Translations under genes and position numbers: made by a program | Source of the DNA: a bacterium | GTDB lineage: Bacteria > Actinomycetota > Acidimicrobiia > Spongiisociales > ZC4RG35 | Assembly: GCA_028824015.1 (NCBI GenBank) | Contig: JAPPFC010000008.1 | Coordinates: forward strand, 1-35,195 | Reading direction: 5' to 3' | Length of the DNA: 35,195 bases | Notes under the pieces: generated by a model | Databases searched by the model: none | What the model saw: the letters and a program-made list of their open reading frames with translations, nothing else | What the model was told of the DNA's origin: nothing | In this document: piece by piece, positions 7,259 to 27,522 of the stretch | How positions within the stretch are numbered: the stretch's first letter is position 1 | How the letters are laid out: every line of letters begins with the position of its first letter

Positions 7259-10102
7259 CTAACCGACCAGTGCGCCGGAGGAGGCCAGTATCCCGTCCAG
7301 GTAATGACCGGTGTAGCTCGCCGGGTCGGCCGCCACCTGTTCGGGAGTGCCGGTGGAAACCACCTGTCCTCCCTCGCTTCCCCCCTCCGGGCCGAGGTCG
7401 ATCAGGTGATCGGCCGACTTGATGACGTCCAGGTTGTGTTCGATCACCACCACCGTGTTGCCCCCGTCGACCAGGCGATGGAGGACGCCCAGCAGGCGGC
7501 GAACATCCTCGAAGTGCAGTCCGGTGGTGGGCTCGTCCAGGATGTACATGGTGCGCCCGGTGGACCGCTTGCGCAGTTCCGACGCGAGCTTCACCCGCTG
7601 CGCCTCCCCTCCCGAGAGGGTGGTGGCGGCCTGCCCGAGCCGAATGTATCCCAGTCCCACATCGCTCAGGGTCTGGAGGGTGAGGGCGATGGGAGGATGG
7701 TGGATGAACAACTCCAGAGCCTGGGAGACCGACATCTCCAGCACGTCGGCGACGCTCTGGCCCTTCCAGAGGATCTGGAGCGTCTCGCGGTTGTATCTCC
7801 TCCCCCGGCACTGCTCGCAGGGGACGTACACGTCGGGCAAAAAGTGCATCTCGATCTTGATGGTCCCGTCGCCCCGGCACTCCTCGCAGCGTCCTCCCGC
7901 CACGTTGAACGAGAACCGTCCCGGCTTGTATCCGCGCGCCTGGGACTCGGGGACCTTGGTGTAGAGGGCGCGGATATGGTCGAAGACCTTGGTGTAGGTG
8001 GCGGGGTTGGATCGGGGCGTGCGGCCGATGGGAGACTGGTCGATGTTGATCACCTTGTCGATGTGCTCGATCCCCTCGATCTCCCGGTGCCGACCGGGAA
8101 GGACCCGGGAACGGTAGATGGTGCGGAGCAGCGCCTTGTAGAGGATCTCCTCGACCAGGGTGGACTTGCCGCTCCCCGAGACCCCGGTGACACAGATCAG
8201 CTTCCCCAGCGGGAAGTCCACGTCGATCCCGTCCAGGTTGTGCTCGGCGGCGCCCAGCACCCGGATGTCCTTCCCGTTGCCCTCCCTGCGGGCCGGTGGA
8301 ACCGGAATCAGCCGGCGGCCCGAGAGGTAGTCGCCGGTGATGGAGGACCGCTCCTCACAGATCACCTCCACCGGACCCTGCGCCACGATCCTCCCCCCGT
8401 GCTCTCCCGCCCCCGGGCCGATGTCCACCACGTGGTCGGCGGAGCGGATCGTCTCCTCGTCGTGCTCCACGACCACCAGGGTGTTCCCCAGGTCGCGGAG
8501 GCGGGTCAGGGTCTCGATCAGTCGACGGTTGTCGCGCTGGTGGAGGCCGATGGACGGCTCGTCCAGGATGTACAGGACGCCCACCAGCCCGGAGCCGATC
8601 TGGGTGGCCAGGCGGATCCGTTGGGCCTCTCCCCCGGCCAGGGTGGCCGCCGATCTGCCCAGGGTGAGATAGCCCAGTCCCACGTCGAGGAGGAAGGAGA
8701 CCCGGGAGCGGATCTCCTTGAGCACCCGCTCGGCGATGGTGGCCTCCCGGTCGGTGAGCTCGAGGTCCTCGATGAAGTCCAACACCCCTCCCAGGGAGAG
8801 TTGGGAGAGATAGTGGATGTTCACTCCCCCCACCGTGACGGCCCGGGAGATCTCGCCCAGCCGGGCGCCGCCGCATTCGTCGCAGGGGACCTGGCGCATG
8901 TACTGGCGGTAGGAGTCCCGGGCGGAGTCCGACCCGGTGTCCCGGTGCCGCCGCTCCAGGTGCGGGATAACCCCCTCGTAGCGGGTTGTCCAGACCCGGC
9001 GCCGCCCCCGGCGGTTGCGATAGCTCACGCGGAGCTTCCGGCGGAAGTTCCCATGGAGGACCTCTTTCCGCACCTCCTCGGGCAACTCCCGCCAGGGGGT
9101 GTGCAGGCTGAAACCTATGTCCTCGGACAGCGCGTTCAGGAGCCGCGTGTAGTAGCCGCTGTACTGGTAGGTCCATGGAGCGATCGCCCCCTCGGTGACG
9201 CTGAGGCGGTCGTTGGGCACCACCAGGTCCTCGGCAACCTGGTAGCGGGCGCCGATCCCCGCGCAGGTCGGGCAGGCGCCGTAGGGGCTGTTGAAGGAGA
9301 AGTTGCGAGGGGCGAGTTCGGAAAAGGACAGCCCGCACAGGTCGCAGGCCAGATGCTGGCTGAAGGACAGGGTGGGACCGTCGATGACATCCACCATCGC
9401 CTTTCCCTCCGCCAGTCCCAGGGCGGTCTCTATCGACTGGGTGAGCCGTTCCTCCATTCCCTCCCGGCGCACCAGCCGGTCGACGACCACCTCGATGGTG
9501 TGCTGGTAGTAGCGGTCGAGCCGGATGTCCTCGTCGAGGGGGAGCACCTCGCCGTCGACCCGCGCCCGGCTGTAGCCCTGGCGCACCAGGTCCTTGAAGA
9601 GCGCCTGGTACTCGCCCTTGCGCCCCTCCACCACCGGCGCCAGCACCATGAACCGCGAACCGTCGTCCAACTCCAGGATGCGGTCCACGATCTGCTGGGG
9701 GGTCTGGCGCTTCACCACCTCGCCGTCGTTGGGACAATGGGGGATCCCGATCCGGGCATACAGGAGGCGCAGGTAGTCATGGACCTCGGTCACCGTCCCC
9801 ACCGTCGACCGGGGGTTGCGGCTGGCGGTCTTCTGGTCGATGGAGATGGCCGGCGACAGCCCCTCGATGAAGTCCACGTCCGGCTTGTCCATCTGTCCCA
9901 GGAACTGGCGAGCGTAGGCCGAGAGGGACTCCACGTAACGCCGCTGTCCCTCGGCGTAGATGGTGTCGAAGGCGAGGCTCGACTTTCCGGAGCCCGACAG
10001 CCCGGTCAGGACGATCAGGGCGTTGCGAGGAAGCTCGACGGTGAGGTCCTTGAGGTTGTGCTCCCGGGCGCCGCTGATCAGGATGGAGTCGGCAGTCATC
10101 AT
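7259..10102 (-). CDS. uvrA: Excinuclease ABC subunit A
   Basis: Damage-recognition ATPase of nucleotide excision repair. The 947-residue protein has two ABC modules: the first Walker A is GLSGSGKSS near residue 34 with its signature [10 protein letters not shown] near residue 493; the second is GVSGSGKST near residue 645 with signature [13 protein letters not shown]. Two Cys4 zinc fingers are intact: CDLC...CPTC in the first half and CEEC...CEQC in the second. The conserved [13 protein letters not shown] and [11 protein letters not shown] segments are present. The ATG overlaps the stop of the upstream hyuB copy (TGATG) and has no Shine-Dalgarno sequence of its own, so translation is likely coupled to hyuB or relies on an internal promoter. 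A second ATG follows immediately. Confidence 0.97.
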
Positions 10103-11835
10103 CAGGAGGGCCGGTGGGCGCGGCGGTCGAGGCGCGCCACGGTGGGAGTGGGGGTCCCGTCGGCCTCCACCCTCACCCCGAACACCCTGTCGGCTTGTTC
10201 GACCGAGACGTACTCGTCCAGCACGTCATCGCCCACCAACTCAACGGGCCTGTCCAGCGGGTCTCCCCACCCTCCTCCGCCGGCCGACAGGTTGTGGAAG
10301 GACTCTCCGGCGTTCATGGAGAAACGCTCCATCCGCGCCCGGCGCGCCCGGTCGGTGTCGGGCCAGACGATCATGGCGTTGGTCTCCGGCTCATGCCCGC
10401 CCCGCAGCCCCCACGGCTTGGTCTTGGTCTTCTTCTTCATGGATAGGATTTCCCCCGGTGCGAGGAATTTTACCCGGCGGGAGACTCCCAACCCTCCCCT
10501 CCAGCGTCCCGCCCCGCCCGAGTCCCGTCGCAACTCCAGGTGCTCGTGGAAGAGGGGCGACTGGTGCTCCAAGACCTCGATCGAGGTGTTGCGGACCGCA
10601 GTGGTGGAGGGATGCTGCAGGGCGTTGGCACCGTCGTGGCTGGGAGTGGCGCCCCATCCGAGTCCTTCGTTGTTGCTCACCAGGTACATCTCCTGAGTGT
10701 GGGGGTGCTTTCCCACCGCCATGAAACCCGGCAGGTCGGAACCGGAACTGGCATGGATCCCGTCCATCCCCCGGGCCAGCGCCTTGTTGATCAACTCGAA
10801 GCCCGCCATCCCGGTCCAGAGGGTGTAGGTGGCGGAGGGATACACCGCATGGAAGAGGTTCCCGGGCGGACAGATCACCTCGAGCGGCCGGTAGTGGCCG
10901 TGGTTGGCGGGGGTGTCGGGAGTCGTCAGGGACTTGAAGACGTTCTTCGCCAGGCTCAGGGTGCACCCGAACGGCATGTTCACCGGACCTGGCACGGCCC
11001 CGTCGGATTCGGAGAAGTCCACGGTGAACCGGGTCCCCTCGATGGTCACCGTCACCGCCATCCTGATCAGATCGTGAGAGATCCCGTCGTCGTCCAACCA
11101 GTCGAAGGCCGACCACTCTCCGTCCGGCATTCCCCGCACGGCTTCGGCCGCGGTCTCCGCGCCGTGGGAGATGATCATCCCGATCGCCCGGTCAACGGTA
11201 GCCATGCCGAACTTCTCCCAGATCTGGTGGAGCCGCCGCTCCCCCACCCGCAGGGCGGCGATCTGGGCATGGAAGTCTCCCATGATGTTCACCGGCAGTC
11301 GGGAGTTGTACCGCAGTATGTCCATCATCTGCGGGTCCACTTCTCCCCGTCGCACCAGTTTCACCCCCGGCAGGATCAGGCCCTCCTGGTGCATGGAGGT
11401 GGAGTCCAGCACGTAGCCGGGGTCCTTGGCGCCCAGGTCCATCCAGTGCGCCCTCACCGCCAGATAGGCGTCGGGAACCTCGCTCCCCTCACCGAAGACC
11501 GGCGCGAACATCATGGCGTCGGCCGCGTGGGCGCCGCTCCAGTAGGGGTAGTTGAGGATCACCACGTCGCCTGGGTGGAGGTTCTCGACCCCCACCTTCT
11601 CCACCCCCTTGTGGATCGCGTAGTCGTTGGCGCCCAGGAAGAAGAGGATCCCCGACGACTCCGAGATCAGCCGACGCTCCCGGTCGTACATGGAGATACC
11701 GAAGTCCAGCACCTCGTAGATCACCGGGTTGAAGGCGGTCCTCACCAGCGTTCGGCGCATCTGCTCGGCAGTGGAGTTCAGGTAGTGGCGGATCACCTCC
11801 ACCGTGGCGCCGTCCAACCCGGGGCCGGTCTTCAC
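10102..11835 (-). CDS. hyuB: Hydantoinase B / oxoprolinase family subunit, copy 1 of 3
   Basis: HyuB-type subunits pair with HyuA-type ATPase subunits to open cyclic amides (N-methylhydantoin, 5-oxoproline) or carboxylate ketones with ATP. The start is set at a GTG preceded by AGGAGG five bases away, giving 577 residues beginning [19 protein letters not shown]; the frame is open further upstream but that part overlaps copy 2 and is unrelated. Family features include the N-terminal ISEDIDGATVE-like segment, [47 protein letters not shown], a Lys-rich [11 protein letters not shown] segment near residue 470 and [12 protein letters not shown] near the C-terminus. It is 17 bases downstream of copy 2 and its stop overlaps the uvrA start. 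Confidence 0.9.
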
Positions 11836-11852
11836 CCGATCCTCCTGATCGC

Positions 11853-13577
11853 TCAAGACCGCCGCCGCTTCCGACGAGCCCCGGTAATAGTGGCGGTCCC
11901 GTCGGGGTGCACCTTCACCCCGTACACCTTCTCCGCCTGCTCCTTCGACACATACTCGTCCAGCACGTCTTCGCGGACCAGGTCGAGGGGCCGCTCCAGG
12001 GGGTCTCCCCACCCTCCACCGCCGGCCGACAGGTTGCGAAACCGGTCTCCCGGATCCATGGTGAAACGCTCCATCCGCGCCCGGTGGGCCCGGTCGGTGT
12101 CGGGCCAGACGATCATGGCGTTGGTCTCCGGTTCATGGCCGCCCCGCAGCGCCCACGGCCTGGTCTTGGTCTTCTTCTTCATCGACAGCATCTCGCCGGT
12201 GGCCAGGAACCGGACCTCGCGGCGGATTCCCACCCCTCCCCGCCACCTGCCCGCCCCGCCCGAGTCCTGGCGCAACTCCAGACGCTCGTGAAAGATGGGC
12301 GAGCGATGCTCCAAGACTTCCATCGAAGTGTTCCGGACCGCGGTCATGGCGGGATGCTGAATCGCGTTTGCGCCGTCGTGATTCGGGGTTGCGCCCCAGC
12401 CGATCCCCTCGTTGTTGCTGACCGCATACAACTCCCCGGTCTCGGGATGGGTTCCCACCGCCATGAAGCCCGGCTCGTCCGCACCCGATGAGGCCGCGAT
12501 GTGCTCCATCCCCTCGGCCAGCGCCTTGTGGGCCAACTCGAAGGCCGCCATGCCGGTCCAGAGAGTGAAAGTGGCGGCGGGATAGACGGCGCGGAACAGG
12601 TTACCCGGCGGACAGGTCACCACCAGCGGTTGGTAGTGGCCGTGGTTGGCGGGAGTGTCGGGCGTCGTGAGAGACTTGAACACTGCCTTGGCCATGCTCA
12701 GAGTCCTTCCGAACGGCATGTTCACCGGCCCCGGCACCGCTCCGTCGGAGTCGCCGTAGTCCACGGTGAACCGGGTCCCCTCGATGGTCACCGTCACCGC
12801 CATCCGGATCAGATCGTGGGAGATCCCGTCGTCGTCCAGCCAATCGCATGCCGACCACTGCCCGTCCGGCATGGACCGCACCGCCTCGGTGGCAGTCTCC
12901 GCGCCGTGCTCGATGATCAGGTCTATGGCGGCGTCCACCTCGGCCAGCCCGAACTTATCCCAGATCTGGTGGAGCCGCCGCTCCCCCACCCGCACCGCGG
13001 CCACCTGGGCATTGAAGTCTCCGATGATGGTGTCGGGCATCCGGGAGTTGTACCGCAGGATGTCGATCATCTGGCGGTCCACCACGCCGCGGTTGATGAC
13101 CTTGACGCCGGGCATGATGAGGCCCTCCTGGTGCATGGAGGTGGAGTCCAGCACGTAACCGGGGTCCTTGGCGCCCAGGTCCATCCAGTGGGCCCTCACA
13201 GCGAGATAGGCGTCGGGAAGCTCGCTCCCCTCACAGAACACCGGCGCGAACAGCATGGCGTCGGAGACATGGGCGCCGCTCCAGTAGGGATAGTTGAGCA
13301 TCACCACATCCCCGGGATGGAGGTTCTCGACCCCCACCTTGTCCACCCCCTTGTGGATGGCGTAGTCGTTGGCGCCCAGGAAGGAAAGGAGGCCCGAGGA
13401 CTCCGAGATCAGCCGACGGTCCCGGTCGTACATGGAGATGCCGAAGTCCAACACCTCGTAGATCACCGGGTTGAAGGCGGTCCTAACCAGGGTGCGCCGC
13501 ATCTGCTCGGCGGTGGAGTTCAGATAGTGACGGATCACCTCCACCGTGGCGCCGTCCAGCGTTGGGGCTCTTCTCAC
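11853..13577 (-). CDS. hyuB: Hydantoinase B / oxoprolinase family subunit, copy 2 of 3
   Basis: Paralogue of the flanking genes, aligning with them along its entire 574 residues. The GTG start at 13577 is chosen because it begins [18 protein letters not shown], parallel to copies 1 and 3, and has GGGGAG just upstream; the frame extends further but would overlap copy 3. It keeps the Lys-rich [11 protein letters not shown] and [12 protein letters not shown] segments. Differences from its neighbours cluster in short patches, for example MPGVKVINRGVVDRQM where copies 1 and 3 read [16 protein letters not shown] or [16 protein letters not shown], and [11 protein letters not shown]. It ends with a basic tail (TGARRKRRRS). 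It lies 16 bases after copy 3 and is part of the same operon. Which HyuB pairs with HyuA is unknown. Confidence 0.9.
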   Translation of the reverse strand: MRRAPTLDGATVEVIRHYLNSTAEQMRRTLVRTAFNPVIYEVLDFGISMYDRDRRLISESSGLLSFLGANDYAIHKGVDKVGVENLHPGDVVMLNYPYWSGAHVSDAMLFAPVFCEGSELPDAYLAVRAHWMDLGAKDPGYVLDSTSMHQEGLIMPGVKVINRGVVDRQMIDILRYNSRMPDTIIGDFNAQVAAVRVGERRLHQIWDKFGLAEVDAAIDLIIEHGAETATEAVRSMPDGQWSACDWLDDDGISHDLIRMAVTVTIEGTRFTVDYGDSDGAVPGPVNMPFGRTLSMAKAVFKSLTTPDTPANHGHYQPLVVTCPPGNLFRAVYPAATFTLWTGMAAFELAHKALAEGMEHIAASSGADEPGFMAVGTHPETGELYAVSNNEGIGWGATPNHDGANAIQHPAMTAVRNTSMEVLEHRSPIFHERLELRQDSGGAGRWRGGVGIRREVRFLATGEMLSMKKKTKTRPWALRGGHEPETNAMIVWPDTDRAHRARMERFTMDPGDRFRNLSAGGGGWGDPLERPLDLVREDVLDEYVSKEQAEKVYGVKVHPDGTATITGARRKRRRS

Positions 13578-13593
13578 CTCACTCCCCGAGCCT

Positions 13594-15321
13594 TCAGGAC
13601 GGGGGGCGCTCCAGACGCGCCGCGGTGGGAGTGGCGGTTCCGTCCGGGTCCACCCTGACCCCGTACACCTGCTCGGCCTGCTCCGCCGAGACGTACTCGT
13701 CGAGCACGTCCTCGCGGACCAACTCGATGGGGCGATCGAGAGGATCTCCCCATCCTCCCCCACCTGCCGAGAAGTTGCGGAACCCCTCCCCGGGCTGCAT
13801 GGTGAACCTCTCCATGCGCGCCCGGTGGGCCCGGTCGGTGTCCGGCCAGACGATCATGGTGTTGGTGGTCTCCGGCTCGTGACCGCCCCGCAACGCCCAC
13901 GGCTTGGTCTTGGTCTTCTTCTTCATCGACAACAGTTCACCGACGGCCACCCACTTCACCTCGCGGCAGACTCCCAACCCTCCCCGCCACCGGCCGGCGC
14001 CGCCCGAGTCCTGGTGCAGTTCCACCCGTTCGTGGAAGATGGGGGACTTGTGCTCCAGCACCTCCAGGGAAGTGTTCCGGACCGCGGTGGTGGAGAGATG
14101 CTGCAGGGCGTTGGAGCCGTCGTGCTCGGGGGTGGCGCCCCAGCCGATCCCCTCGTTGTTGCTGACCGAGTACATCTCACCGGTGTCGGGATGGGTTCCC
14201 ACCGCCATGAAACCGGGCTCGTCGGAACCCGACGACGCAGCGATGTGGTCCATCCCCTGGGCCAGAGCCTTGTTGATCAACTCGAACGACGCCATGGCCG
14301 TCCACAAGGTATAGGTGGCGGACGGGTAGACGGCATGGAACAGGTTCCCGGGGGGACAGATCACGGTGAGGGGTTCGTAGTGGCCGTGATTGGCAGGAGT
14401 CTCGGGAGTGGTGAGCGACTTGAAGACGTTCTTAGCCTGGCTCAAGGTGCTCCCGTAGGGCATGTTCACCGGTCCGGGCACACCCGGGTCGGAATCCCCG
14501 TAGTCCACGGTGAAATTCTCCCCCTCGATGGTCACCGTCACCGCCATCTTGATCAGGTCATAGGAGATCCCGTCGTCGTCCAGCCAATCGAAGGCCGACC
14601 ATTGGCCGTCGGGCATCGCCCGGACCGCCTCCCGGGCGGTCTGGGCCCCGTGCTCGATGATGCGATCGATCGCCGCATCCACGTTGGCCAGCCCGAACTT
14701 CTCCCAGATCTGGCGGAGCCGCCGCTCCCCCACCCGCATGGCCGAGATCTGAGCGTTGAAGTCCCCGATGATGGTCTCGGGCATCCGGGAGTTGTATCGC
14801 AGGATGGCCATGATCTGAGGGTCCACCTCCCCCCTGCGGATCAGCTTTATGCCCGGCAGGATCAGCCCCTCCTGGTGTATGGATGTGGAGTCCAGCACGT
14901 AGCCGGGATCCTTGGCGCCCAGGTCCATCCAATGGGCCCTCACGGCCAGGTAGGCGTCGGGGCGGTCACTGCCCTCGCAGAAGACCGGTGTGAACAGCAT
15001 GGCGTCCGCGGCGTGCGCCCCGCTCCAGTAGGGAACGTTGATGATCACCACGTCGCCGGGATGAAGGTTCTCGATTCCCACTTTCTCCACACCCTTGTGG
15101 ATGGCGAAGTCGTTGGCGCCCAGAAACGAGAGGATCCCCGACGACTCGGAGATCAACCGGAGGCGCCGGTCGTACACGGAGATACCGAAGTCCAACACCT
15201 CGTAGATGACCGGGTTGAACGCGGTCCTCACCAGGGTGCGGCGCATCTGCTCGGCGGTGGAGTTGAGATAATGACGGATCACCTCCACGGTGGCGCCGTC
15301 CAGTTTCAGGCGGGGGCTCAT
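13594..15321 (-). CDS. hyuB: Hydantoinase B / oxoprolinase family subunit, copy 3 of 3, coupled to hyuA
   Basis: The 575-residue copy nearest hyuA. Its ATG overlaps the hyuA stop codon by four bases (ATGA), so the two are translationally coupled, the arrangement expected of subunits made in equal amounts. The protein begins [18 protein letters not shown] and has the same landmarks as the other copies, with one extra residue in HEPETTNTMIVWP where copies 1 and 2 read [12 protein letters not shown]. It is likely the ancestral partner of this HyuA, copies 1 and 2 having arisen by downstream tandem duplication. N-methylhydantoinase, 5-oxoprolinase or ketone-carboxylase activity cannot be separated by inspection. 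Confidence 0.92.
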   Translation of the reverse strand: MSPRLKLDGATVEVIRHYLNSTAEQMRRTLVRTAFNPVIYEVLDFGISVYDRRLRLISESSGILSFLGANDFAIHKGVEKVGIENLHPGDVVIINVPYWSGAHAADAMLFTPVFCEGSDRPDAYLAVRAHWMDLGAKDPGYVLDSTSIHQEGLILPGIKLIRRGEVDPQIMAILRYNSRMPETIIGDFNAQISAMRVGERRLRQIWEKFGLANVDAAIDRIIEHGAQTAREAVRAMPDGQWSAFDWLDDDGISYDLIKMAVTVTIEGENFTVDYGDSDPGVPGPVNMPYGSTLSQAKNVFKSLTTPETPANHGHYEPLTVICPPGNLFHAVYPSATYTLWTAMASFELINKALAQGMDHIAASSGSDEPGFMAVGTHPDTGEMYSVSNNEGIGWGATPEHDGSNALQHLSTTAVRNTSLEVLEHKSPIFHERVELHQDSGGAGRWRGGLGVCREVKWVAVGELLSMKKKTKTKPWALRGGHEPETTNTMIVWPDTDRAHRARMERFTMQPGEGFRNFSAGGGGWGDPLDRPIELVREDVLDEYVSAEQAEQVYGVRVDPDGTATPTAARLERPPS

Positions 15322-17357
15322 CGGACCACCAGGTTTCCGAGACGGTCGGGCACCGCCACCTGGTCGCTGTGAACGATCGTCACCGACGTGGGCTCGCGGA
15401 TGATGGCCGGACCCTCAACCTCTACTTCTGGTTGAAGGAGGCTCCTCTCGTAGATGGGGAACAACCGGCGCTCCCGGGTGGCGAAGTCGAAGGCATGGCG
15501 CTCCCCGACCCGGCCGGCGGTCAGATCGGACTCGGAAGATCGGTCACCGACCAGGTGCCCGGCGGGTTTGTCCAGGAGTCCGACGCCCCTTATCCGGGCG
15601 GTCAGGATCTGTATTTCCTCATCCAGTTTGTGCCCGTAGCGTTCCAGGTGTTGCTCGTGGAATTTGGCGGACACCGACCCGTGGTCGTCGGCCTCCTCCA
15701 GTTCGACCGACAGGGTGTGTTCCTGTCCGTTGTATCGCAGATCGAGGCGTCTGATGAACACCCGGTTCTCGGGCGGCACGGCCTGCGCAGCCAGCACCTG
15801 GTCGGCCTCGATCTCGAGTTGGGACAGGACCCCTTCCATCTGTGCCAGGGAGGCTTCCTCCAGCATGGTCAGCACCGTCTGGCCCACGTCGTACTCCAGG
15901 TCCGACATCAGCATTCCCCAGGCCGAGAACACGGCCGGAGCGGCGGGGACCACCACTTCGGGCATCTCCATCTCCCTGGCCAGGAGCGGGGCCAGCATCG
16001 GGCCGGCGCCGCCGAAGGCCACCAGCGAGAACTCTCTCGGGTCGAGACCCCGTTCCACGGTGATCTCCCGGATGGCCCCCACCGTGCGGGCCAGCAGGAC
16101 GTCGAAGACCGACGCGGCGGCTCGTTCGGTGGACATGCCCAAGGGCTCTGCCAGTTTCTCAGTCACCCCCCTCACGGCCGCCTCCCGGTCGAGGCTCATC
16201 TCTCCGCCCAGGAACTCGTCCGCCGCCAGGTACCCCAGACAGAGTGCGGCGTCGGTTACGGTCGGCTCGGTATTCCCTCGTCCGTAGCAGATCGGCCCGG
16301 GGACGGCGCCGGCGCTGTGCGGCCCCACGCGGAGGAGGCCCTTGTCCATCCAGGCGATGGAACCTCCCCCGGCGCCTATAGTGCGGATGTCGAACACCGG
16401 GATGCGGATCGGAAGGGCTTCTATCTCGGCTTCATACACCTCGGTGGGCGTCCCGTCCACGATGACGCAGGCATCCAGGCTGGTGCCTCCCACGTCGAAG
16501 GAGATGAGGGAAGACCGCCCGGTGGACTCTCCCAGGCTTATCGTCCCGGCGATACCTCCCGCCGGACCGGAGAAGACGGTGAGGAGCGGTGAAACCCGGG
16601 CGATCTCCGAGGTCATGGCCCCGCCGGCCGAACGCATTATCAGAAAGGACCCGTCGAATCCCCGGGCTCGCAACCGCTCCTCCAGGTCGGTTAGATACCG
16701 GCCCAGGATGGGCCTGATGTAGGCGTCGGCCACCGCCGTGGAGGTGCGTTCGTACTCGTGGTACTCCCTCACCAGGTCGATTGAGACAGAGACCGACAGG
16801 TCGGGGAAGGCCTTGGCCAGGATGCTCTTGGCGGCTTCCTCGTGCTCGGTGTTGGCGTAGGAATGAAGAAAGCAGACCGCCACCGATTCCACTCCCCGAT
16901 CCGAGAGGAGGCGCCCGGCCTCGACCACCGCCTGGCGGTCGAGTTCGGTCACCACCTTGCCCCGATGGTCAATGCGCCCGGGGACCCCCACAGTGTGGCG
17001 CCTCTTGACCAGCAGTTCGGGTCGCCGGTATTGGAAGTCGTACTTCGAGCCGCTCGGGAGGTCTCCACGGGCGATCTCGAAGATGTCCCGGAAGCCGGCG
17101 TTGGCGATGATGCCGGTCACCGCCCCTTTTCGTTCCAGAATGGCGTTCAGCCCCAGGGTGGTGCCGTGGGTGTAGACGGAGGCTTCCTCCAGGGAAGCGT
17201 TGGTCGCCTTGGTCGCGGTGATCACTCCCTCGGCGGGAGCGGAGGGTGTGGTGGGGGACTTGCGCACCGTGATCGCCCCGGTCTGCTCGTCATAGGAGAT
17301 GGCGTCCACGAACGTGCCGCCGATGTCCACCGCCAAGCGGTATTTCCGTTCAGTCAT
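15318..17357 (-). CDS. hyuA: Hydantoinase A / oxoprolinase family ATPase subunit
   Basis: ATP-binding partner of HyuB; it phosphorylates or activates the cyclic amide or ketone substrate. The 679-residue protein has the actin-like ATPase fold: LAVDIGGTFVDA near residue 7 (phosphate 1), YTHGTTLGLNAI near residue 60, and FDVGGTSLDACVI near residue 282 (second phosphate loop). IGAGGGSIAWMD and GPHSAGAVPGPICYGRG follow, as in all family members, with a C-terminal domain ending at the HyuB junction. The ATG at 17357 (MTERKYRLAVDIGG) fits the family start and follows GAGAAAGAAG; an in-frame ATG at 17402 would overlap the preceding amidohydrolase. This is the only complete hyuA, against three hyuB; a decayed 5' copy lies at 18615-18683. 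Confidence 0.93.
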   Translation of the reverse strand: MTERKYRLAVDIGGTFVDAISYDEQTGAITVRKSPTTPSAPAEGVITATKATNASLEEASVYTHGTTLGLNAILERKGAVTGIIANAGFRDIFEIARGDLPSGSKYDFQYRRPELLVKRRHTVGVPGRIDHRGKVVTELDRQAVVEAGRLLSDRGVESVAVCFLHSYANTEHEEAAKSILAKAFPDLSVSVSIDLVREYHEYERTSTAVADAYIRPILGRYLTDLEERLRARGFDGSFLIMRSAGGAMTSEIARVSPLLTVFSGPAGGIAGTISLGESTGRSSLISFDVGGTSLDACVIVDGTPTEVYEAEIEALPIRIPVFDIRTIGAGGGSIAWMDKGLLRVGPHSAGAVPGPICYGRGNTEPTVTDAALCLGYLAADEFLGGEMSLDREAAVRGVTEKLAEPLGMSTERAAASVFDVLLARTVGAIREITVERGLDPREFSLVAFGGAGPMLAPLLAREMEMPEVVVPAAPAVFSAWGMLMSDLEYDVGQTVLTMLEEASLAQMEGVLSQLEIEADQVLAAQAVPPENRVFIRRLDLRYNGQEHTLSVELEEADDHGSVSAKFHEQHLERYGHKLDEEIQILTARIRGVGLLDKPAGHLVGDRSSESDLTAGRVGERHAFDFATRERRLFPIYERSLLQPEVEVEGPAIIREPTSVTIVHSDQVAVPDRLGNLVVR

Positions 17358-17382: not shown

Positions 17383-18564
17383 TCAGGCGGCCGATCGGTC
17401 ATCTCGCACCACGCGACCAGACTGGATCACCAGGGAGATTCCTCTCATCGCCGACACGTCCGACAACGGGTTTTCATCCACCGCGACCAGATCGGCCACT
17501 TTGCCCTGCTCAACAGTACCGATCTGCGACTCCAATCCCAAGAGGCGGGCAGCGTTGGATGTGGCCCCGGCCAGGGCCAGGTGGGGGCGAAGCCCGGCCC
17601 CTTGCATGAGTTCCATCTCATGCACCGTCACCGAGGTCCCCCCGATGGGATCTCCGGGGGGATAGTCGGTCCCGTTGACCAAGGTGACCCCCGCCGTCAC
17701 CGCCCGACGGATGCTGGCCAGGTGCATGGGCCCCACTTGCAGGGATGTCTCGATCTGGAACTCTTCGAATCCCTTCCAGCGCATCCATTCCTGAGACCGG
17801 GTGCAACAGAGAGTGGGGGTGAGGAACACCCCCTCGGCCGCCATCCGGCCGGCCGTCTCCTCATCCAGGTCGTAGGCGTGCTCAAAGGATCGGACCCCGG
17901 CGTCTAATGCCCAGTTGATGGCCAGCGACGAACCGGCGTGGGCCACCACGTAGGTCTCCCGTTCGGCCGCTGCCTTGACTGTTGCCTGCATCTCTTCTCG
18001 ACTCATCTCGGGATGGTCGAAGGTTTCTCCCAGGTTGGCGATGCCGCCGGTGATGAACACCTTGATGTGGGAACATCCGGCGTCCAACTCGGCCAATGCA
18101 GCCTCCCGGAAGGCTTCCGGTCCGTCGGCCAATGCGCTGCCAATCCCGTCGCCATGTCCTCCCGGGGTGGATATCGCCCGGCCGGCGCCCACGATCCGGG
18201 GAACATCGGCCCAACCTGCCCGCGCTGCTTCGGCCAGCAACAGGTCGGCCCGGTTCAGTTCATGAACGCACCGGAGGGTCGTGACTCCTGCCCGAAGCGC
18301 ATCCTGGGCCCGTCCGTAGGCCCGGAGCACGGTGAGCCCCGGGTTCTCGCCTTCGTCGAGGGCCGAAAAGGGATACACCATCGAAAGGTGCGTATGCACG
18401 GATATGAGACCTGGAACGAGGTAGCGTCCACCTAGGCTCATTCGCTCCCCGGCGCCCGGGTGCTTGCGGATAGCGCCGATCCTTCCCCCCGATATCTCCA
18501 CACTGACGCCGTCTCGGACCTGTCCACGGACAACATCCACTACCCTGGCATCGGTCAACCACAC
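17383..18564 (-). CDS. Metal-dependent amidohydrolase, copy 1 (imidazolonepropionase/prolidase-like)
   Basis: Amidohydrolase-superfamily enzyme with a TIM-barrel hydrolytic domain, expected to cleave a cyclic amide, dipeptide or similar bond. The GTG at 18564 is chosen since it has AAGGAGG six bases upstream and gives a 393-residue protein exactly collinear with copy 2. Metal-site residues are intact: HTH near residues 57-59, the Lys of IKVFITGG near 168 (carbamylated bridge), His of VVAHAG near 209, His of SFEHAYD near 229 and Asp of VNGTDYP near 300. It lies 25 bases upstream of hyuA and in the same operon, so it probably acts in the same pathway. The substrate cannot be named. Confidence 0.88.
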   Translation of the reverse strand: MWLTDARVVDVVRGQVRDGVSVEISGGRIGAIRKHPGAGERMSLGGRYLVPGLISVHTHLSMVYPFSALDEGENPGLTVLRAYGRAQDALRAGVTTLRCVHELNRADLLLAEAARAGWADVPRIVGAGRAISTPGGHGDGIGSALADGPEAFREAALAELDAGCSHIKVFITGGIANLGETFDHPEMSREEMQATVKAAAERETYVVAHAGSSLAINWALDAGVRSFEHAYDLDEETAGRMAAEGVFLTPTLCCTRSQEWMRWKGFEEFQIETSLQVGPMHLASIRRAVTAGVTLVNGTDYPPGDPIGGTSVTVHEMELMQGAGLRPHLALAGATSNAARLLGLESQIGTVEQGKVADLVAVDENPLSDVSAMRGISLVIQSGRVVRDDRSAA

Positions 18565-18614
18565 TTCCAACCTCCTTGTTCAGGTCTCCCGGGAGGGCAG
18601 GGGCCCACTCGGCA

Positions 18615-18683
18615 GGTGTTGGCCATGGGGTCGACAAGGGTCCTGCCTGTGTCCACCGCTGAGCGGTGGTTCCGTTCACTCAC
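18615..18683 (-). pseudogene. Decayed 5' remnant of a second hyuA
   Basis: The gap between the two amidohydrolases contains, on the minus strand, a GTG-initiated stretch that aligns with the first codons of the intact hyuA. Ten of the first 21 residues are identical, including ER at positions 3-4, AVD at 9-11 and VD at 17-18, and the DNA matches over about 70 bases (TGTCCACCGC and TTCCGTTCA on the plus strand are shared). The distance from the amidohydrolase stop to this start (26 bases) equals that in the intact pair (25 bases). The reading stays open after the matched part but no longer resembles hyuA. This is the scar of an amidohydrolase-hyuA tandem duplication. Confidence 0.72.
18653..18669. 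other. Perfect 7-base hairpin inside the hyuA remnant
   Basis: CCACCGC, TGA, GCGGTGG on the plus strand forms a 7-base-pair stem with a 3-base loop between the two amidohydrolase genes. It could weaken read-through or stabilise an mRNA end in this operon. There is no U-tract, and it lies within a decayed coding region, so it may be fortuitous. Confidence 0.35.
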
Positions 18684-18709
18684 CTTCTCTCCTGTTGGGG
18701 AGGTGGACG

Positions 18710-19891
18710 TCAGGAAGACGGCCGGTCGTCGCGGACCACCCTGCCGGACTGCATGACGAAGGAGATGTTCCGCATGGCCGCCACGCCGTCGAGGGGGTTG
18801 TCTTCCACAGCCACCAGGTCGGCGACCTTTCCCTCCTCAACGGTGCCGATCTCCGACTCCAGTCCCAGCAGCCGGGCGGCGTTGGAGGTGGCGCCCCGGA
18901 GCGCCAGGTGGGGGTGGAGGCCGGCCCCCTCCATGAGTCCCATCTCGTACACCGCCACCGAGGTGTCCTCGATCGGATCCCCGGGGGGATAGTCGGTGCC
19001 GTTGACCATGGTCACCCCGGCCGCGATCGCCCGCTGGATGCTGGCCAGGTGCATCGGTCCCACTTCCAGCGACGACTCGATCTGGAATTCCTCGAACCCC
19101 TTCCACCGCATCCACTCCTGGGAGCGGGTGACGCACAGCGTGGGAGTGAGGAACACTCCCTTCGCCGCCATCCGGCCGGCGGTGTCGGCGTCCAGGTCGT
19201 AGGCGTGCTCGAAGGAGCGGACCCCGGCGTCCAGCGCCCAGTTGATGGCCAGCGACGATCCGGCGTGGGCCACGACGTAGGTGTCGTGGTGTCGCGTGGC
19301 GCTCACGGTGGCCGCCATTTCCTCGCGGGTCATCTCCGGGTGGTCGAACTGCTCCCCCAGCCCGGCGATGCCTCCGGTGATGAACACCTTGATGTGGGAG
19401 CATCCCGCGTCCAACTCGGCCAGGGCGGCCTCCCGGAAGGCCTCGGGTCCGTCGGCCAGGACGCTGCCCATGCCGTCGCCGTGACCGCCGGTGGTCGAGA
19501 GCGCCCGGCCGGCGCCCACGATCCGGGGAACGTCGGCCCAGCCCGCCCTGGCGGCCTCGGCCAGCAGCAGGTCGGCCTGGTTCTGCTCATGGACGCAGCG
19601 GATGGTCGTCACTCCCGCCCGTAGGGCGTCTTGGGCCCGCTGGTAGGAGCGGAGCACCGTCAGGCCCGGGTTCTCGTTCAGGTCTATGGAAGAGAAGGGG
19701 TACACCACCGACAGGTGGGTGTGGACCGAGATGAGTCCCGGAACGAGATACCGGCCGCCCAGGCTCATCCGCTCCCCGGCGCCGGGTTGGCGCTGGATGG
19801 ATCCGATCCTCTCCCCCGAGATCTCCACGCTCACCCCGTCCAGGACCTCGCGTCTCTCTACGTCAACCACCCTGGCGTCGGTCAGCCACAT
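18710..19891 (-). CDS. Metal-dependent amidohydrolase, copy 2 (imidazolonepropionase/prolidase-like)
   Basis: Paralogue of copy 1 with the same length (393 residues) and the same metal ligands: H57 and H59 in SVHTHLS, K168 in IKVFITGG, H209 in VVAHAG, H229 in SFEHAYD and D300 in NGTDYP. The ATG start has AAGGAGG six bases upstream, located in the last codons of the preceding transferase gene, whose stop is only 3 bases before this ATG. Most differences from copy 1 are conservative and scattered, suggesting both copies are under selection. It lacks an adjacent intact hyuA because that was deleted down to the remnant at 18615-18683. Confidence 0.88.
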   Translation of the reverse strand: MWLTDARVVDVERREVLDGVSVEISGERIGSIQRQPGAGERMSLGGRYLVPGLISVHTHLSVVYPFSSIDLNENPGLTVLRSYQRAQDALRAGVTTIRCVHEQNQADLLLAEAARAGWADVPRIVGAGRALSTTGGHGDGMGSVLADGPEAFREAALAELDAGCSHIKVFITGGIAGLGEQFDHPEMTREEMAATVSATRHHDTYVVAHAGSSLAINWALDAGVRSFEHAYDLDADTAGRMAAKGVFLTPTLCVTRSQEWMRWKGFEEFQIESSLEVGPMHLASIQRAIAAGVTMVNGTDYPPGDPIEDTSVAVYEMGLMEGAGLHPHLALRGATSNAARLLGLESEIGTVEEGKVADLVAVEDNPLDGVAAMRNISFVMQSGRVVRDDRPSS

Positions 19892-19894
19892 TCT

Positions 19895-22525
19895 CTACCT
19901 CCTTGTCGCTCCTTCGAAGCTCTCGACAACTGTGCGGGCCCTGGCTAGCCAGGAATTCTCTTCTCCCCTGCGGCGAAGAGTATCGCGGATCTCCGGATTC
20001 TTGGAGTCGGCCAACGCCAGGTCCAGGGCGCCGGACATGCCCGCCGCGTCCGAGTATGAACGCACCTCGGGGAAAGCCACCACCTCGGGCATCTCGCTGC
20101 AGACCACGGGCTTTCCTCCCGCGAAGTACTCGAAGAGCTTGAGCGGGGACGTCGACCGGGTGATCTCGTTCACCGCGAACGGGATCATCGCCACGTCGAA
20201 GCACTGGAGCCACCGGGGCAGGTCCCCATAGGGCTGGGCGGCTATCCACTCGACGTTGGGGAGGTTGAACAGCGGGCGGTGCCTGGTGCTCCGGTCGTAG
20301 GGAGGGCCGATGAGGAGAAAACTCCAGTCGTCTCGCGTCTCGGCCACCTCGGTGAGCAGGTCGTAGTCCAGCCAGCGGGCGATGGCGCCGTAGTAACCGG
20401 CGATGGGCCGGCCCTCTGCCAGGAGGCGCTGGAGGACCGGATGGGCCGGAGAGGAGACCTGCCAGTCGGCGAAGTGCTCGAACTCCACCGCGTTGGGGAG
20501 GTAGACAGCGTCGGGACGGGGTTGGCTCGCCCGTTCCAAGAGGCTCCGGGCGCTGGCGGTGATCATCCCGGCATCGGCCAGTCCGAGGGAGTGGAGTCTT
20601 CTCAGTTTGTTCAGGTCGTGGCCGTCGAAGACCTCGATCTCATCTATCCAGTCGTACACGGTCCGGGTGCCCTCCGGGTAGCGGGCCGCCTGCTCCCAGT
20701 TGTAGGTGATCGCCCACACCAGGGGATCGGGCAGTTCGTGCAGCGCTTTCTGGGGCCCGTTGTAGAGGAACAGTCGGGGCTCTATCTCATCCCAGCCGGG
20801 CGGGCTCTGCATGGAGTTGTCATAGATCACCGTGTAACCCAGGCGGGAGAAGGCCTGGGCGAGTTGCTGGGGTCGCTGGAACAGATGGACGTACCACTCG
20901 ATGGTGGGAAGGAACACCACCACCCCCTTGCTTTCGGCGATCCGGTCGGTGACCTGGGGGGGAATCGGCTGCCCCGAGGTTTGGGATGCGGACGTAGCCG
21001 CCGTGTCGGCGCCGGGGATGGCGCGGGCCATCATGCGACGAAGCCTGTGGCGGAGCCTCCAGTACTTGGTGAGCAACTTCATGGCGCGGGTCTGTCGGAG
21101 GTTGTCCAGTTCCAGTTGGAGCAGGTCCCCCCTTCGCTCGGCCTGGGCGTGCTGATCATGGGCTGCCTGCAACTGCGCCCGGGCGGCCTCGGATTCCCGG
21201 ATCAACCGGTTTCGAAGCTCCAGGTTGTCCGCCAGAGTCTCGTCCAATTCCTCCTGGGTCCCAGCCAGGTTCCGGGTCAACGCCAGCGCGATGTCCTGCC
21301 GGATCTCCTGGTAAGGAGTGGTCTGCTGTGCTTCCGAGCTCTCTCCAAGCGCCTCCTCGATCAAGGACGGGACTGCACGGGCCTTCCCCAGCATGGCCTC
21401 CGCCCACTCGTACATCATGTGGGATTGGTCGGCGTAGTCCCCCCAGAGGCTTCGGAGCGTCGCCGGCAATCCAACCCATGACTCCGGCTCATCGGGAACA
21501 CACCAGGGTCCCAGACGGAGTTCGGCGGCCATTCGGGCCACCTTGGGGTCGTAGGAGATCGATACGGACGGGGTGCGTCCCATCGCCGCCAGGATCATCC
21601 CGTGCAAACGCATGTTGACAGCCATGTCGCTTCTCCCGAAGACCGTGATCAACTGGCCAGGGCTGAGATCCTGGGGCGTCAGATGAATGGCGGAGGAGCG
21701 CATCAGTCCGGCGATCCGCTCACAGCAGCGCCGGTCGTCGAACTCGTCGGATCCCAGTTCCTGCATGGGCGCCAACAGCACCGATCCCCCGTTCTCCTCA
21801 CAGAAGATGTCCAGGGCCCGGGCGAGATTGCGTTCCCGTTCTGCCTGGGTCTCCCCCGTTCCCCAGGACCGCGGTGCCACGGCCACCAGGGGTCGGGGAA
21901 GGTCGGAGATGGTCTGGTTCAGATCGGGAGGCAGGTCGACCCGGTCGACCAGCCAGGCAGGATCGCCCACCACCGGGGAGTCGGCTATGCCGAGCGATGC
22001 GAGTTCGGATCGGTCCTGGTCGGTGCGCACCGTGAAGGCCGAGGCCGCCTCCGCCAATGCCCTGACCCACTGGGGGGACCGGGGATCATGGAACGGACCG
22101 ACCCCCACCCCCCAAACCAGGACGGGTGTCCCCGCGGCGGCCGCCGCCAGGGCAGGGGCCAGATAGCCGGGGATATCGGCCGCGTCGCGGCTGAGGGCGT
22201 GCTCCGGTTGGAAGCCCCACTGATCTGACAGGAGCCCCCCTCCACCCACGATCACCATCCGGGACCGGTATGCCTCCGAGAGGAACGCCGGAACATCGGC
22301 CCGGTCCACCGCCTCGACGCCGTGCCTTCGTCGGGTGTCGCTGGGATCGCCCGACGCCACAGTCCACCTGCCGGTTGGGAACGTCTCCCTGAGGAGGACC
22401 AGCATCCCGGCTAGGATTGCCTCATCACCGAGGTTCCTGAACCCGTAGTGACCGATTATGAGTGCGTCGGCCGGAGCCGGGACCTCCTCTGAGTTGTCCG
22501 AGCGCACAGAGCCGACACCTGACAC
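19895..22525 (-). CDS. CsaB-like polysaccharide pyruvyltransferase fused to a glycosyltransferase
   Basis: An 876-residue two-enzyme fusion. Residues about 21-345 are a polysaccharide pyruvyltransferase (CsaB/WcaK family): IIGHYGFRNLGDEAIL near 23-38, VIVGGGGLLSD near 91, VWGVGVGP near 138 and the conserved MRLHGMILAAMG with His308. Residues about 405-500 are Gln/Glu/Leu-rich and likely coiled coil, ending in a basic Arg-rich stretch. Residues about 534-870 are a GT-B-type glycosyltransferase (WYVHLFQRPQQLAQAF, then KLFEYFAGGKPVV near the C-terminus). CsaB adds pyruvate ketals to wall polymers, the ligands of SLH domains. No signal peptide; cytoplasmic or membrane-peripheral. The GTG start at 22525 is uncertain; another GTG lies six codons in. 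It heads the minus-strand operon. Confidence 0.85.
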   Translation of the reverse strand: MSGVGSVRSDNSEEVPAPADALIIGHYGFRNLGDEAILAGMLVLLRETFPTGRWTVASGDPSDTRRRHGVEAVDRADVPAFLSEAYRSRMVIVGGGGLLSDQWGFQPEHALSRDAADIPGYLAPALAAAAAGTPVLVWGVGVGPFHDPRSPQWVRALAEAASAFTVRTDQDRSELASLGIADSPVVGDPAWLVDRVDLPPDLNQTISDLPRPLVAVAPRSWGTGETQAERERNLARALDIFCEENGGSVLLAPMQELGSDEFDDRRCCERIAGLMRSSAIHLTPQDLSPGQLITVFGRSDMAVNMRLHGMILAAMGRTPSVSISYDPKVARMAAELRLGPWCVPDEPESWVGLPATLRSLWGDYADQSHMMYEWAEAMLGKARAVPSLIEEALGESSEAQQTTPYQEIRQDIALALTRNLAGTQEELDETLADNLELRNRLIRESEAARAQLQAAHDQHAQAERRGDLLQLELDNLRQTRAMKLLTKYWRLRHRLRRMMARAIPGADTAATSASQTSGQPIPPQVTDRIAESKGVVVFLPTIEWYVHLFQRPQQLAQAFSRLGYTVIYDNSMQSPPGWDEIEPRLFLYNGPQKALHELPDPLVWAITYNWEQAARYPEGTRTVYDWIDEIEVFDGHDLNKLRRLHSLGLADAGMITASARSLLERASQPRPDAVYLPNAVEFEHFADWQVSSPAHPVLQRLLAEGRPIAGYYGAIARWLDYDLLTEVAETRDDWSFLLIGPPYDRSTRHRPLFNLPNVEWIAAQPYGDLPRWLQCFDVAMIPFAVNEITRSTSPLKLFEYFAGGKPVVCSEMPEVVAFPEVRSYSDAAGMSGALDLALADSKNPEIRDTLRRRGEENSWLARARTVVESFEGATRR

Positions 22526-25498: not shown

Positions 25499-26254
25499 CT
25501 AGGCGATGGTCTGGCCGGCGTCCAGGTAGATGGTGGTGCCGGTCGCCATCCGGGAGTCGTCCGAGGCTAGGAACACCGCTGCTCCCACAATGTCTTCGGG
25601 AACCCCGATGATTCCGAAGGGAATCATGGACAACCGGTAGGCGCGGAACTCCGGGTCGGCAAGGTCCTCCCGGTTCAGGTCCGTCTCGATCAGGCCTGGC
25701 GCTATGGCGTTTGCCCGGATCTTGTGGGGAGCCAGCTCGGACGCCAGTTGGCGAGTGAGCATCCGCACGCCACCTTTCGCAACGCAATAGTGGGTCAGGT
25801 CCCGGCCCGCCAGCGTGTCGCCGGCAGACGACATATTGATGATCACCCCGCCGTCGCCCTGGCTGACCATCTGTTTGGCGGCCGCCTGGGCGCAGAGGAA
25901 GAATCCCTTGAGGTTCACATCGAGGATCTTGTCCCACTCTGACTCCTCGATCTCCAGCAAAGGGGTCCGGATGAGGATGCCCGCGTTGTTCACCAGGATG
26001 TCGATTCTCCCGAACCGGTCCACCGCCGCCGACATCAAACCGGCCACATCCGAGGATGAGGAAGTGTCGGCCTGCACGGCGATGGCTTCCGATCCCATCG
26101 CCTCGATCTCGGCCACCGCCGAGTCCGCAGCTCCCTGGTCACTCCGGTAGTTGACCACCACCTTCGCCCCTTCCCTCCCGTATCCCAGGGCGATGGCCCT
26201 CCCAATGGAACGGGAGGACCCGGTGACTACCGCAACTCTGTCTTTCAGTCGCAT
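25499..26254 (-). CDS. SDR-family NAD(P)-dependent oxidoreductase
   Basis: Classical short-chain dehydrogenase/reductase of 251 residues. It has the nucleotide-binding VVTGSSRSIGRAIA near residue 9 (the usual TGxxxGxG with Ser in the middle Gly position) and NNAG near residue 88. The catalytic set is complete: Asn in VNLKG, Ser in NMSSAGD, and Y-C-V-A-K. The C-terminal tail (GTTIYLDAGQTIA) is typical of FabG- and glucose-dehydrogenase-like members. The ATG follows TTAGGAG at seven bases and lies 13 bases after the nicX-like stop, so the two are co-transcribed; an alcohol or ketone intermediate of the same pathway is the likely substrate. The second nicX-like gene is followed by a decayed copy of this gene with identical spacing. 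Confidence 0.9.
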   Translation of the reverse strand: MRLKDRVAVVTGSSRSIGRAIALGYGREGAKVVVNYRSDQGAADSAVAEIEAMGSEAIAVQADTSSSSDVAGLMSAAVDRFGRIDILVNNAGILIRTPLLEIEESEWDKILDVNLKGFFLCAQAAAKQMVSQGDGGVIINMSSAGDTLAGRDLTHYCVAKGGVRMLTRQLASELAPHKIRANAIAPGLIETDLNREDLADPEFRAYRLSMIPFGIIGVPEDIVGAAVFLASDDSRMATGTTIYLDAGQTIA

Positions 26255-26267
26255 GGATTACTCCTAA

Positions 26268-27308
26268 CTACTCCAACTCGAATCCGGGCACCACGAAACT
26301 CCCCCGATCAATGATCTGGGTATCACCAACCGCTATGGAGTGGTTGCGAGTGGGGATGTCGAAATGGAAGTTCACCCGGTTCTGGCCGCCCAGCTTGTGG
26401 GTGAAGTTGGCGCCGAATGCAATCAGCATGTTGCCGTAATAACTCTCGGTGTCCATCACTCCCCCGCCTTCCCAGAAGCGAAGGCCCAGGGCGTTCCAAT
26501 TGGCTCGATGCTCGTACCCCCAACCGATGTGAGACACACCGTAGGCCCGCTTGTCCTTGGGCAACTCGAAGAAGTCCTTGAGCAGCCGCATGTCGGCGCC
26601 GCCATCCATGGAGACGATGCTTCCTTCCCGCAACTCCATACGGATCGGCTGTTCCACATACTTGCCCATCGGCAGCAGAGCATCACCCGCATCTATCACC
26701 AAGGTTCCCTCGGCCGAGTCCTCCAAGGGCGCCAAGCCGCACTGTCCCGAAGGCCAGTGATCCCACCGTCCCTGCTGGTCCGTGTAGCCATACTGGCATC
26801 CCAGCGGACGGCCCGTGTACCTGACCGTGAAGTCGCTCCCGGCATCCGACCAAACCCGCATGGTGTCTGAGGTCGCCAACAGTTCCATGCTTCTTTCGCC
26901 CCGCTTGCGGATCTCAGGAAGGGGGAACATCCGGCGTAGGTGGTCCTCAGGCTCCTCGATCATCAGGGAACGGACACCCGCCGCCAAGGCCTCATTATGA
27001 GCATCGGAGTAGATCCAATGGGACCCCATACTGGCCAGAAAACCCACCACCAGGTCGCAACCCTTCCAAGCATCGACGATGGTACGCGACTTCATCCACG
27101 AGTCGTCGGCGGCCACCATGATCTGAAAGAAATCACCACCCAGCACCCTGACCGCTCCCATCAAAGCCGTGATGTAAGCCGGGTTGCTCTGAGTGTTGGT
27201 GAAAGCCATAACCGTCTGCCCGGGGCCGACCCCGCACAACTCCATATGATCTCGGAACATCGGCACCAACTCGGCGCCAGCCGCTGAGGTTGTCGGGACT
27301 CTACGCAA
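26268..27308 (-). CDS. NicX-like 2,5-dihydroxypyridine dioxygenase family protein, copy 1
   Basis: The sequence resembles NicX, the Fe(II) enzyme that opens 2,5-dihydroxypyridine in nicotinate breakdown; the fold is shared with M29-type aminopeptidases. In 346 residues it shows GSDF near 157, GRWDHWPSG near 180, EDSAEGTLVIDAGD near 196, YGVSHIGWG with His260, MDTESYYGNML near 285 and NFHFDIPTRN with His315 and Asp317. These are the two His and one Asp that bind iron in NicX. The substrate may be another N-heterocycle. Translation starts at TTG, preceded by AGGAGG six bases upstream; no ATG is better placed. It is followed 13 bases later by the SDR gene. Confidence 0.85.
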   Translation of the reverse strand: MRRVPTTSAAGAELVPMFRDHMELCGVGPGQTVMAFTNTQSNPAYITALMGAVRVLGGDFFQIMVAADDSWMKSRTIVDAWKGCDLVVGFLASMGSHWIYSDAHNEALAAGVRSLMIEEPEDHLRRMFPLPEIRKRGERSMELLATSDTMRVWSDAGSDFTVRYTGRPLGCQYGYTDQQGRWDHWPSGQCGLAPLEDSAEGTLVIDAGDALLPMGKYVEQPIRMELREGSIVSMDGGADMRLLKDFFELPKDKRAYGVSHIGWGYEHRANWNALGLRFWEGGGVMDTESYYGNMLIAFGANFTHKLGGQNRVNFHFDIPTRNHSIAVGDTQIIDRGSFVVPGFELE

Positions 27309-27370: not shown

Positions 27371-27509
27371 GACGGCGTCGGCCGATCCCTGGTCACTCCG
27401 GTAGTTTGGCCACCACCTTTGCTCCTTCCCTCCCGCACCCCAGGGCGACCGTCCTCCCGATGGAACGGGAGGACCCGGCCACTCCTGCAACTCTGTCTTT
27501 AAGTCGCAT
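27371..27509 (-). pseudogene. Frameshifted, truncated copy of the SDR gene
   Basis: Reading from the ATG at 27509, 28 of the first 33 residues are identical to the intact SDR (MRLKDRVA, SSRSIGR, GREGAKVV shared). A one-base insertion (AAAC for AAC) after that point shifts the frame to an early stop. In the other frame homology continues (NYRSDQG) until about 27371, where it ends abruptly. The ribosome-binding site has decayed as well (AAGAG against AGGAG), but the 13-base spacing to the preceding nicX-like stop is kept. The rest of the gene, more than 600 bases, has been deleted. Confidence 0.88.
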
Positions 27510-27522
27510 GGATTGCTCTTGA

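Follow-up and report, generated by a model that had tools for sequence, protein, structure and literature searches.

Tandem duplications with endpoints inside genes leave truncated gene ends at their junction. In homology-facilitated illegitimate recombination, one end of an incoming fragment is anchored by homology and the other is joined with little or no homology, and foreign DNA is added beside a resident gene. During natural transformation of Streptococcus pneumoniae, imported homologous DNA can lead to tandem duplication by unequal pairing and hence to merodiploids, as described in PMC3784515. Here, we analysed two tandem amidohydrolase genes, A2 and A1, which resemble a tandem duplication with intragenic endpoints in their order of gene copy, head of the next gene and next copy, with a junction inside coding sequences, but differ from it in that the copies seem to be of different allele lineages and the stub between them looks younger than their split. 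The S. pneumoniae merodiploids resemble the import that we propose below in that an old allele and an incoming one can end up next to each other. However, as given in PMC3784515, they span ~100 to 900 kb and involve repeats, whereas the segment studied here is ~1.3 kb and old, with no competence or repeat shown.

The window, i.e. the whole stretch of DNA that was analysed (35,195 nucleotides), is an entire contig of a 2.9 Mb genome in 60 contigs. Its close relatives are metagenome bins, which we take to be of sponge origin. When 138 genomes of the order were searched for A (E up to 1e-150), 17 were positive: every one of the six in the genus, and eleven from a single other family. Fifteen long loci (the window and L009 to L022) were used to count gene arrays; L023 to L028, with A at 51–59% identity, were excluded both from this count and from the trees. 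The genes of the window considered here all lie on the minus strand, in the order X2, spacer, X1, SDR (short-chain dehydrogenase), further genes, GT, A2, spacer, A1, hyuA, hyuB1, hyuB2, hyuB3 and uvrA. The features are as follows.

27523 to 28563, minus strand: X2, the leading copy of a separate tandem pair; no Pfam match.
27377 to 27518, minus strand: head stub of the SDR gene, between X2 and X1; alignment score 187, against a maximum of 29 in 500 shuffles.
26268 to 27308, minus strand: X1, second copy, with 312 of 346 residues identical to X2; no Pfam match.
25499 to 26254, minus strand: intact SDR gene; the X spacer contains a copy of its head.
19895 to 22525, minus strand: GT, with a CsaB-like pyruvyltransferase part and a glycosyltransferase-like part; its 3' end contains the ribosome-binding site of A2.
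18710 to 19891, minus strand: A2, first copy of the amidohydrolase; matches Amidohydro_1, with Xaa-Pro dipeptidase as the closest named family, below cut-off; metal-site motifs present.
18625 to 18691, minus strand: hyuA head stub, 67 bp of ungapped homology to the hyuA leader and first codons.
18607 to 18624, minus strand: 18-bp stretch between two aligned blocks, which must contain the join of hyuA head and GT tail.
18571 to 18606, minus strand: probable tail of the upstream GT gene; matches the GT tail of L013 and carries the ribosome-binding site of A1.
17383 to 18570, minus strand: A1, second amidohydrolase copy, identical to A2 at 328 of 393 residues; the start is probably the GTG at 18564.
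15318 to 17357, minus strand: intact hyuA; matches Hydantoinase_A, with caprolactamase alpha as the closest named family, below cut-off.

The hyuA gene and the three hyuB genes belong to the hydantoinase A and B family, and their closest named models are caprolactamase subunits, far below the cut-offs. The three tandem hyuB genes (10102–15321 of the window) are pairwise 81–82% identical. Three are also present in L009, L012, L013 and L021, and two before the contig end in L010; in the other family, one hyuB match was found in each of the nine loci read, with L011 and L017 ending in it or soon after. A literature search on hydantoinase in sponge Acidimicrobiia found nothing.

The spacer between A2 and A1 is 139 bp long (18571–18709), and a stretch of 67 bp within it (18625–18691) aligned without gaps, as DNA, to hyuA, from its leader into its first codons. 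The local alignment score of the spacer against the hyuA start was 54, while 2000 dinucleotide shuffles gave a mean of 17.5 and a maximum of 33, and none of the 2000 reached the observed score. Furthermore, when the spacer was compared with 1156 segments of 200 bp from both strands of the window, the spacer itself being excluded, the three best segments were the hyuA start (54, 54 and 51) and the next best scored 31. The spacing is also alike, since 26 bases separate the A2 stop codon (18710–18712) from the stub GTG (18681–18683; ATG in hyuA), and 25 bases separate the A1 stop from the hyuA ATG (17355–17357). The translation of the stub, VSERNHRSAVDTGRTLVDPMA, has 10 of 21 residues in common with MTERKYRLAVDIGGTFVDAIS of hyuA. 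The preliminary description had read the gap as a relic of the hyuA start on the basis of this alignment, spacing and residue identity, and all of these points were confirmed, the score of 54 lying well above the shuffle maximum of 33. Relatives with an unrelated spacer at this place would have spoken against that reading; instead, the same spacer, with a related stub, was found in L012 (between A2 and A1) and in L021 (between A2 and a decayed A1). The stubs of the three species align with one another, the L021 stub having a 15-base deletion over the start codon, and the match to hyuA stops at one common place in all three.

The hyuA origin did not extend to the whole spacer, a point that the preliminary description had overlooked. 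The ~36 bp at its A1-proximal end (18571–18606), directly before A1, are not hyuA and resemble the L013 form of the GT 3' end. In all six species of the genus, the A ribosome-binding site lies inside GT or within ~10 bases of the GT end; thus, the GT tail had to come along with A. When the alignment was anchored at the ribosome-binding site and the site itself was left out, the remnants of the three species scored 12, 16 and 11 against the L013 GT tail, with shuffle maxima of 6, 7 and 7 (0/300 shuffles reached each score), and only 2 to 4 against the other five GT tails, which is not beyond chance. Without anchoring and without the site, the match to the GT tail was significant in L021 (15/1000) and not in the window or L012; with the site included, the score was 32, as compared with 31 for an unrelated chance match elsewhere in the window. 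These results suggest that 18571–18606 is the probable tail of the upstream GT gene, and that the spacer is probably a hyuA head plus a GT tail, i.e. a junction of two gene ends that meet within 18 bp. Since no more than 18 bp separate the stub from the GT-tail-like sequence, a single event joining two gene ends would suffice.

Among the six species of the genus, both A copies are intact in two (the window and L012), three have one copy, and L021 has A2 and an A1 from which residues 26–288 are gone. Of the 15 long loci, two (the window and L012) have an intact A2 and A1 and one (L021) has A2 with a decayed A1. Because of this loss pattern, in which one of the three pair-bearing species has lost most of A1, the suggestion that the amidohydrolase pair was retained for dosage or diversity is unsupported. 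The motifs HTHL, IKVF, VVAHAG, SFEHAY and GTDY, which we take to be the metal-site motifs of the amidohydrolase family, are found at matching places in both window copies, and dN/dS between A1 and A2 is low (0.109/0.911). With the motifs kept and dN/dS low, both copies may be working amidohydrolases of the Xaa-Pro dipeptidase-like group.

The two copies are strongly diverged at synonymous sites, with a dS of 0.91 (window) and 0.80 (L012), values near 0.9 being close to saturation. For comparison, dS of rpoB is 0.20–0.35 from the window to the four near species and 1.28 from the window to L013, which lies outside the other five species in rpoB; hyuA is 93–95% identical within the five close species. 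In the A tree built from DNA (identical rows collapsed from 29 to 20, the truncated L021 A1 left out), A1 joined L013 (99/98) and A2 joined L009, L010 and L021 (100/100). A split of A1 and A2 after L013 was rejected by the AU test on DNA (p-AU 0.0044) and on first and second positions (0.021), whereas it was not rejected on third positions (0.26) or on protein (0.65, the tree held to this split scoring higher). On DNA, A1 and A2 thus seem to be old and of different allele lineages, and a split that predates L013 is supported but not proven.

A second tandem pair in the same window, X2 and X1, is built in the same way. Within the X2–X1 spacer lie 142 bp from the head of the SDR gene found downstream of X1, and no match to the upstream leader of X was found in it. 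A search of nine genomes found the X2/X1 pair only in G000, G003 and G005, which are the same three species that carry the A pair. The SDR stub is also present in G003 and G005, where it is shorter and matches the last stretch of the window spacer at 62/69 and 62/70 positions. In the X tree, from which homologues of 62–70% identity were excluded, X1 grouped on DNA, and similarly on protein, with G002, the species of L013 (99/99), and X2 with G004 (100/100), so that X1 and X2 are not each other's closest relatives in either data set. A split of X after G002 was rejected with both DNA (p-AU 0.0096) and protein (p-AU 0.0014), and dS between X1 and X2 is 0.88–0.93. In G001, the genome of L009, only a distant X copy (68%) was found, perhaps because the contig ends. 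X1 itself (26268–27308 of the window; L102 and L103) is almost unchanged from one of the three species to another, as is the first part of SDR; dS among them is 0.004–0.03 for X1 and about 0.25 for X2. This near-identity points to a recent exchange of a ~1.1-kb tract covering X1, and it warns that conversion may also have refreshed the stubs.

We then compared the stubs with the intact genes, taking the A copies as ~0.40–0.45 apart per lineage. Identity of the hyuA stub to hyuA of its own species is 44/60 sites in the window, 48/60 in L012 and 39/45 in L021; the L012 stub matches the hyuA of L021 at 49/60 sites. Taken together, the three stubs show 30 differences in 165 sites against the nearest hyuA, that of L021, and 30 or fewer differences arose in 0.75% of simulations (probability 0.0075) of decay at 0.40 substitutions per site. 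The 60 bp used in this test were picked because they could be aligned, and the test would be invalidated if the stub had undergone gene conversion with the intact gene. The window SDR stub is identical to its SDR gene at 128/149 positions, which has a probability of 1.5e-6 under neutral decay at an age of 0.40. As there are too few differences for decay at 0.40, the hyuA stub seems younger than the A1/A2 split, a conclusion that is supported but not proven; stubs could also look young as a result of gene conversion.

Another possibility is that the spacer has been kept for a function, either by encoding a coupled leader peptide or by forming an RNA hairpin between A2 and A1, and an inverted repeat, CACCGCnnnGCGGTG, is indeed present in all three stubs. 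However, this repeat is nearly present in hyuA itself and is thus inherited, the L021 stub lacks its start codon, and RNA folding of the three spacers was no better than that of shuffles (z −0.61, −1.25 and −0.41). In addition, the window and L012 stubs differ at 12/60 sites, a divergence of 0.233, which is no less than the rpoB synonymous value of 0.199; changing at least as fast as synonymous sites, the stub looks unconstrained. We therefore regard a functional spacer as very improbable.

For the origin of the A pair, we favour additive import, followed by duplication of a partial unit and, as the least likely of the three, duplication of a whole unit with later deletion of hyuA. Under additive import, to which we give an even chance, the spacer marks where a divergent A copy came to lie beside the resident one. 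A donor fragment consisting of the GT 3' end, A2 and the hyuA head would have entered by homologous recombination in GT at one end and by illegitimate joining just upstream of the resident A1–hyuA at the other; the resident A1 would have been kept beside the divergent A2, and the hyuA stub and a short resident GT tail would remain between them. Both import rather than duplication and the crossover places are what we infer here from comparison alone, whereas homology-facilitated illegitimate recombination has been described from laboratory transformation. Because the A and X pairs share layout, species and allele split, and both have stubs that appear younger than the copies, import fits better than two old duplications, and the same twin pattern also makes it fit better than duplication of a whole unit with deletion of hyuA. 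Recombination across the locus, seen as an 809-bp A2 tract identical in the window and L012, also speaks for import. Against import, the hyuA stub is not closest to L009 and L010, the species with the A2 type only, although the simplest form of import would lead one to expect it. No donor was found among the 138 genomes of the order searched for A, and GT amino-acid identity along the gene, in which a crossover was sought, showed no clear step.

An old tandem duplication of a partial unit of ~1.3 kb, made up of GT tail, A and hyuA head and ending inside both neighbouring genes, is possible, with a chance that we put clearly short of even. The copies would then have diverged, L013 would have lost A2, L009 and L010 would have lost A1, and L021 would be losing it, as its A1 without residues 26–288 suggests. 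The composite junction is the expected remnant of such a duplication, the trees at both loci fit a split just before the branching of L013, and the A1–hyuA leader and the stub leader look alike and L013-like; the observed A and X trees would also be expected if the split predated L013 and losses followed. However, both stubs are too like the intact heads for neutral decay since the copies split (0.0075 and 1.5e-6, both at an age of 0.40), L009 and L010 have no trace of the stub or its leader, and two duplications of about equal age with matching losses in other species would be needed. The preliminary description had proposed that a whole A–hyuA unit was duplicated, that one hyuA was deleted to a stub and that the amidohydrolase was kept for dosage or diversity. 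Its view that the gap marks how the pair arose stands, the stub being real hyuA sequence at the right spacing, but the duplication and deletion of a full hyuA is improbable. It requires an added deletion of ~1.97 kb of hyuA that nevertheless spared the GT tail before A1, and one of the three pair-bearing species has lost most of A1. Moreover, the intact amidohydrolase–hyuA–amidohydrolase–hyuA array sought in relatives was absent from the 15 long extant loci, none of which has two hyuA genes and all of which (15/15) have exactly one hyuA directly after A; extinct intermediates may nevertheless have carried a second one. A simple recent duplication is likewise unsupported, given the dS of 0.80–0.91, the grouping of A1 with L013 on DNA and a stub that looks too young for that age.

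Returning to additive import, we propose more tentatively, at somewhat less than an even chance, that two nearby segments of the cluster, in the same three species, each keep a resident and an imported allele with a seam of the same kind, the head of the next gene, i.e. that additive import has recurred as natural merodiploidy in uncultured Acidimicrobiia. The A2/A1 case is one of ordinary genome evolution with an instructive twin in X2/X1, and it corrects a history that might otherwise have been taken as duplication, deletion and selection for dosage. If the import is true, bacterial tandem paralogues can consist of two old alleles joined together rather than a recent duplication, and a small readable seam tells the two apart. 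The X2/X1 twin makes the pattern testable across genomes; if recurrent import is true, it is an alternative to allele replacement, and head stubs of the downstream gene between tandem genes would be a mark for genome-wide searches.

Several further observations were made on the A–hyuA loci. An 809-bp tract of A2 (18697–19507 of the window) is identical between the window and L012 although rpoB dS between them is 0.20, and a second identical tract of 271 bp lies in A1 (17425–17697); these tracts point to recent recombination between species. Genome G064 (5% contamination) has two A–hyuA loci, L058 and L067, on different contigs, and one of them may be a binning error, since it is almost identical to a locus of another genome. 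L009 (6297–6390) and L010 (9777–9870) have in common an A–hyuA spacer and hyuA start that differ from those of the remaining four species in the genus and partly resemble those of the other family, hinting at another import or replacement. Finally, dN from the window to the other family is 0.09–0.10 for hyuA, below the 0.23–0.25 for rpoB, which suggests a possible transfer of the operon between the two families.
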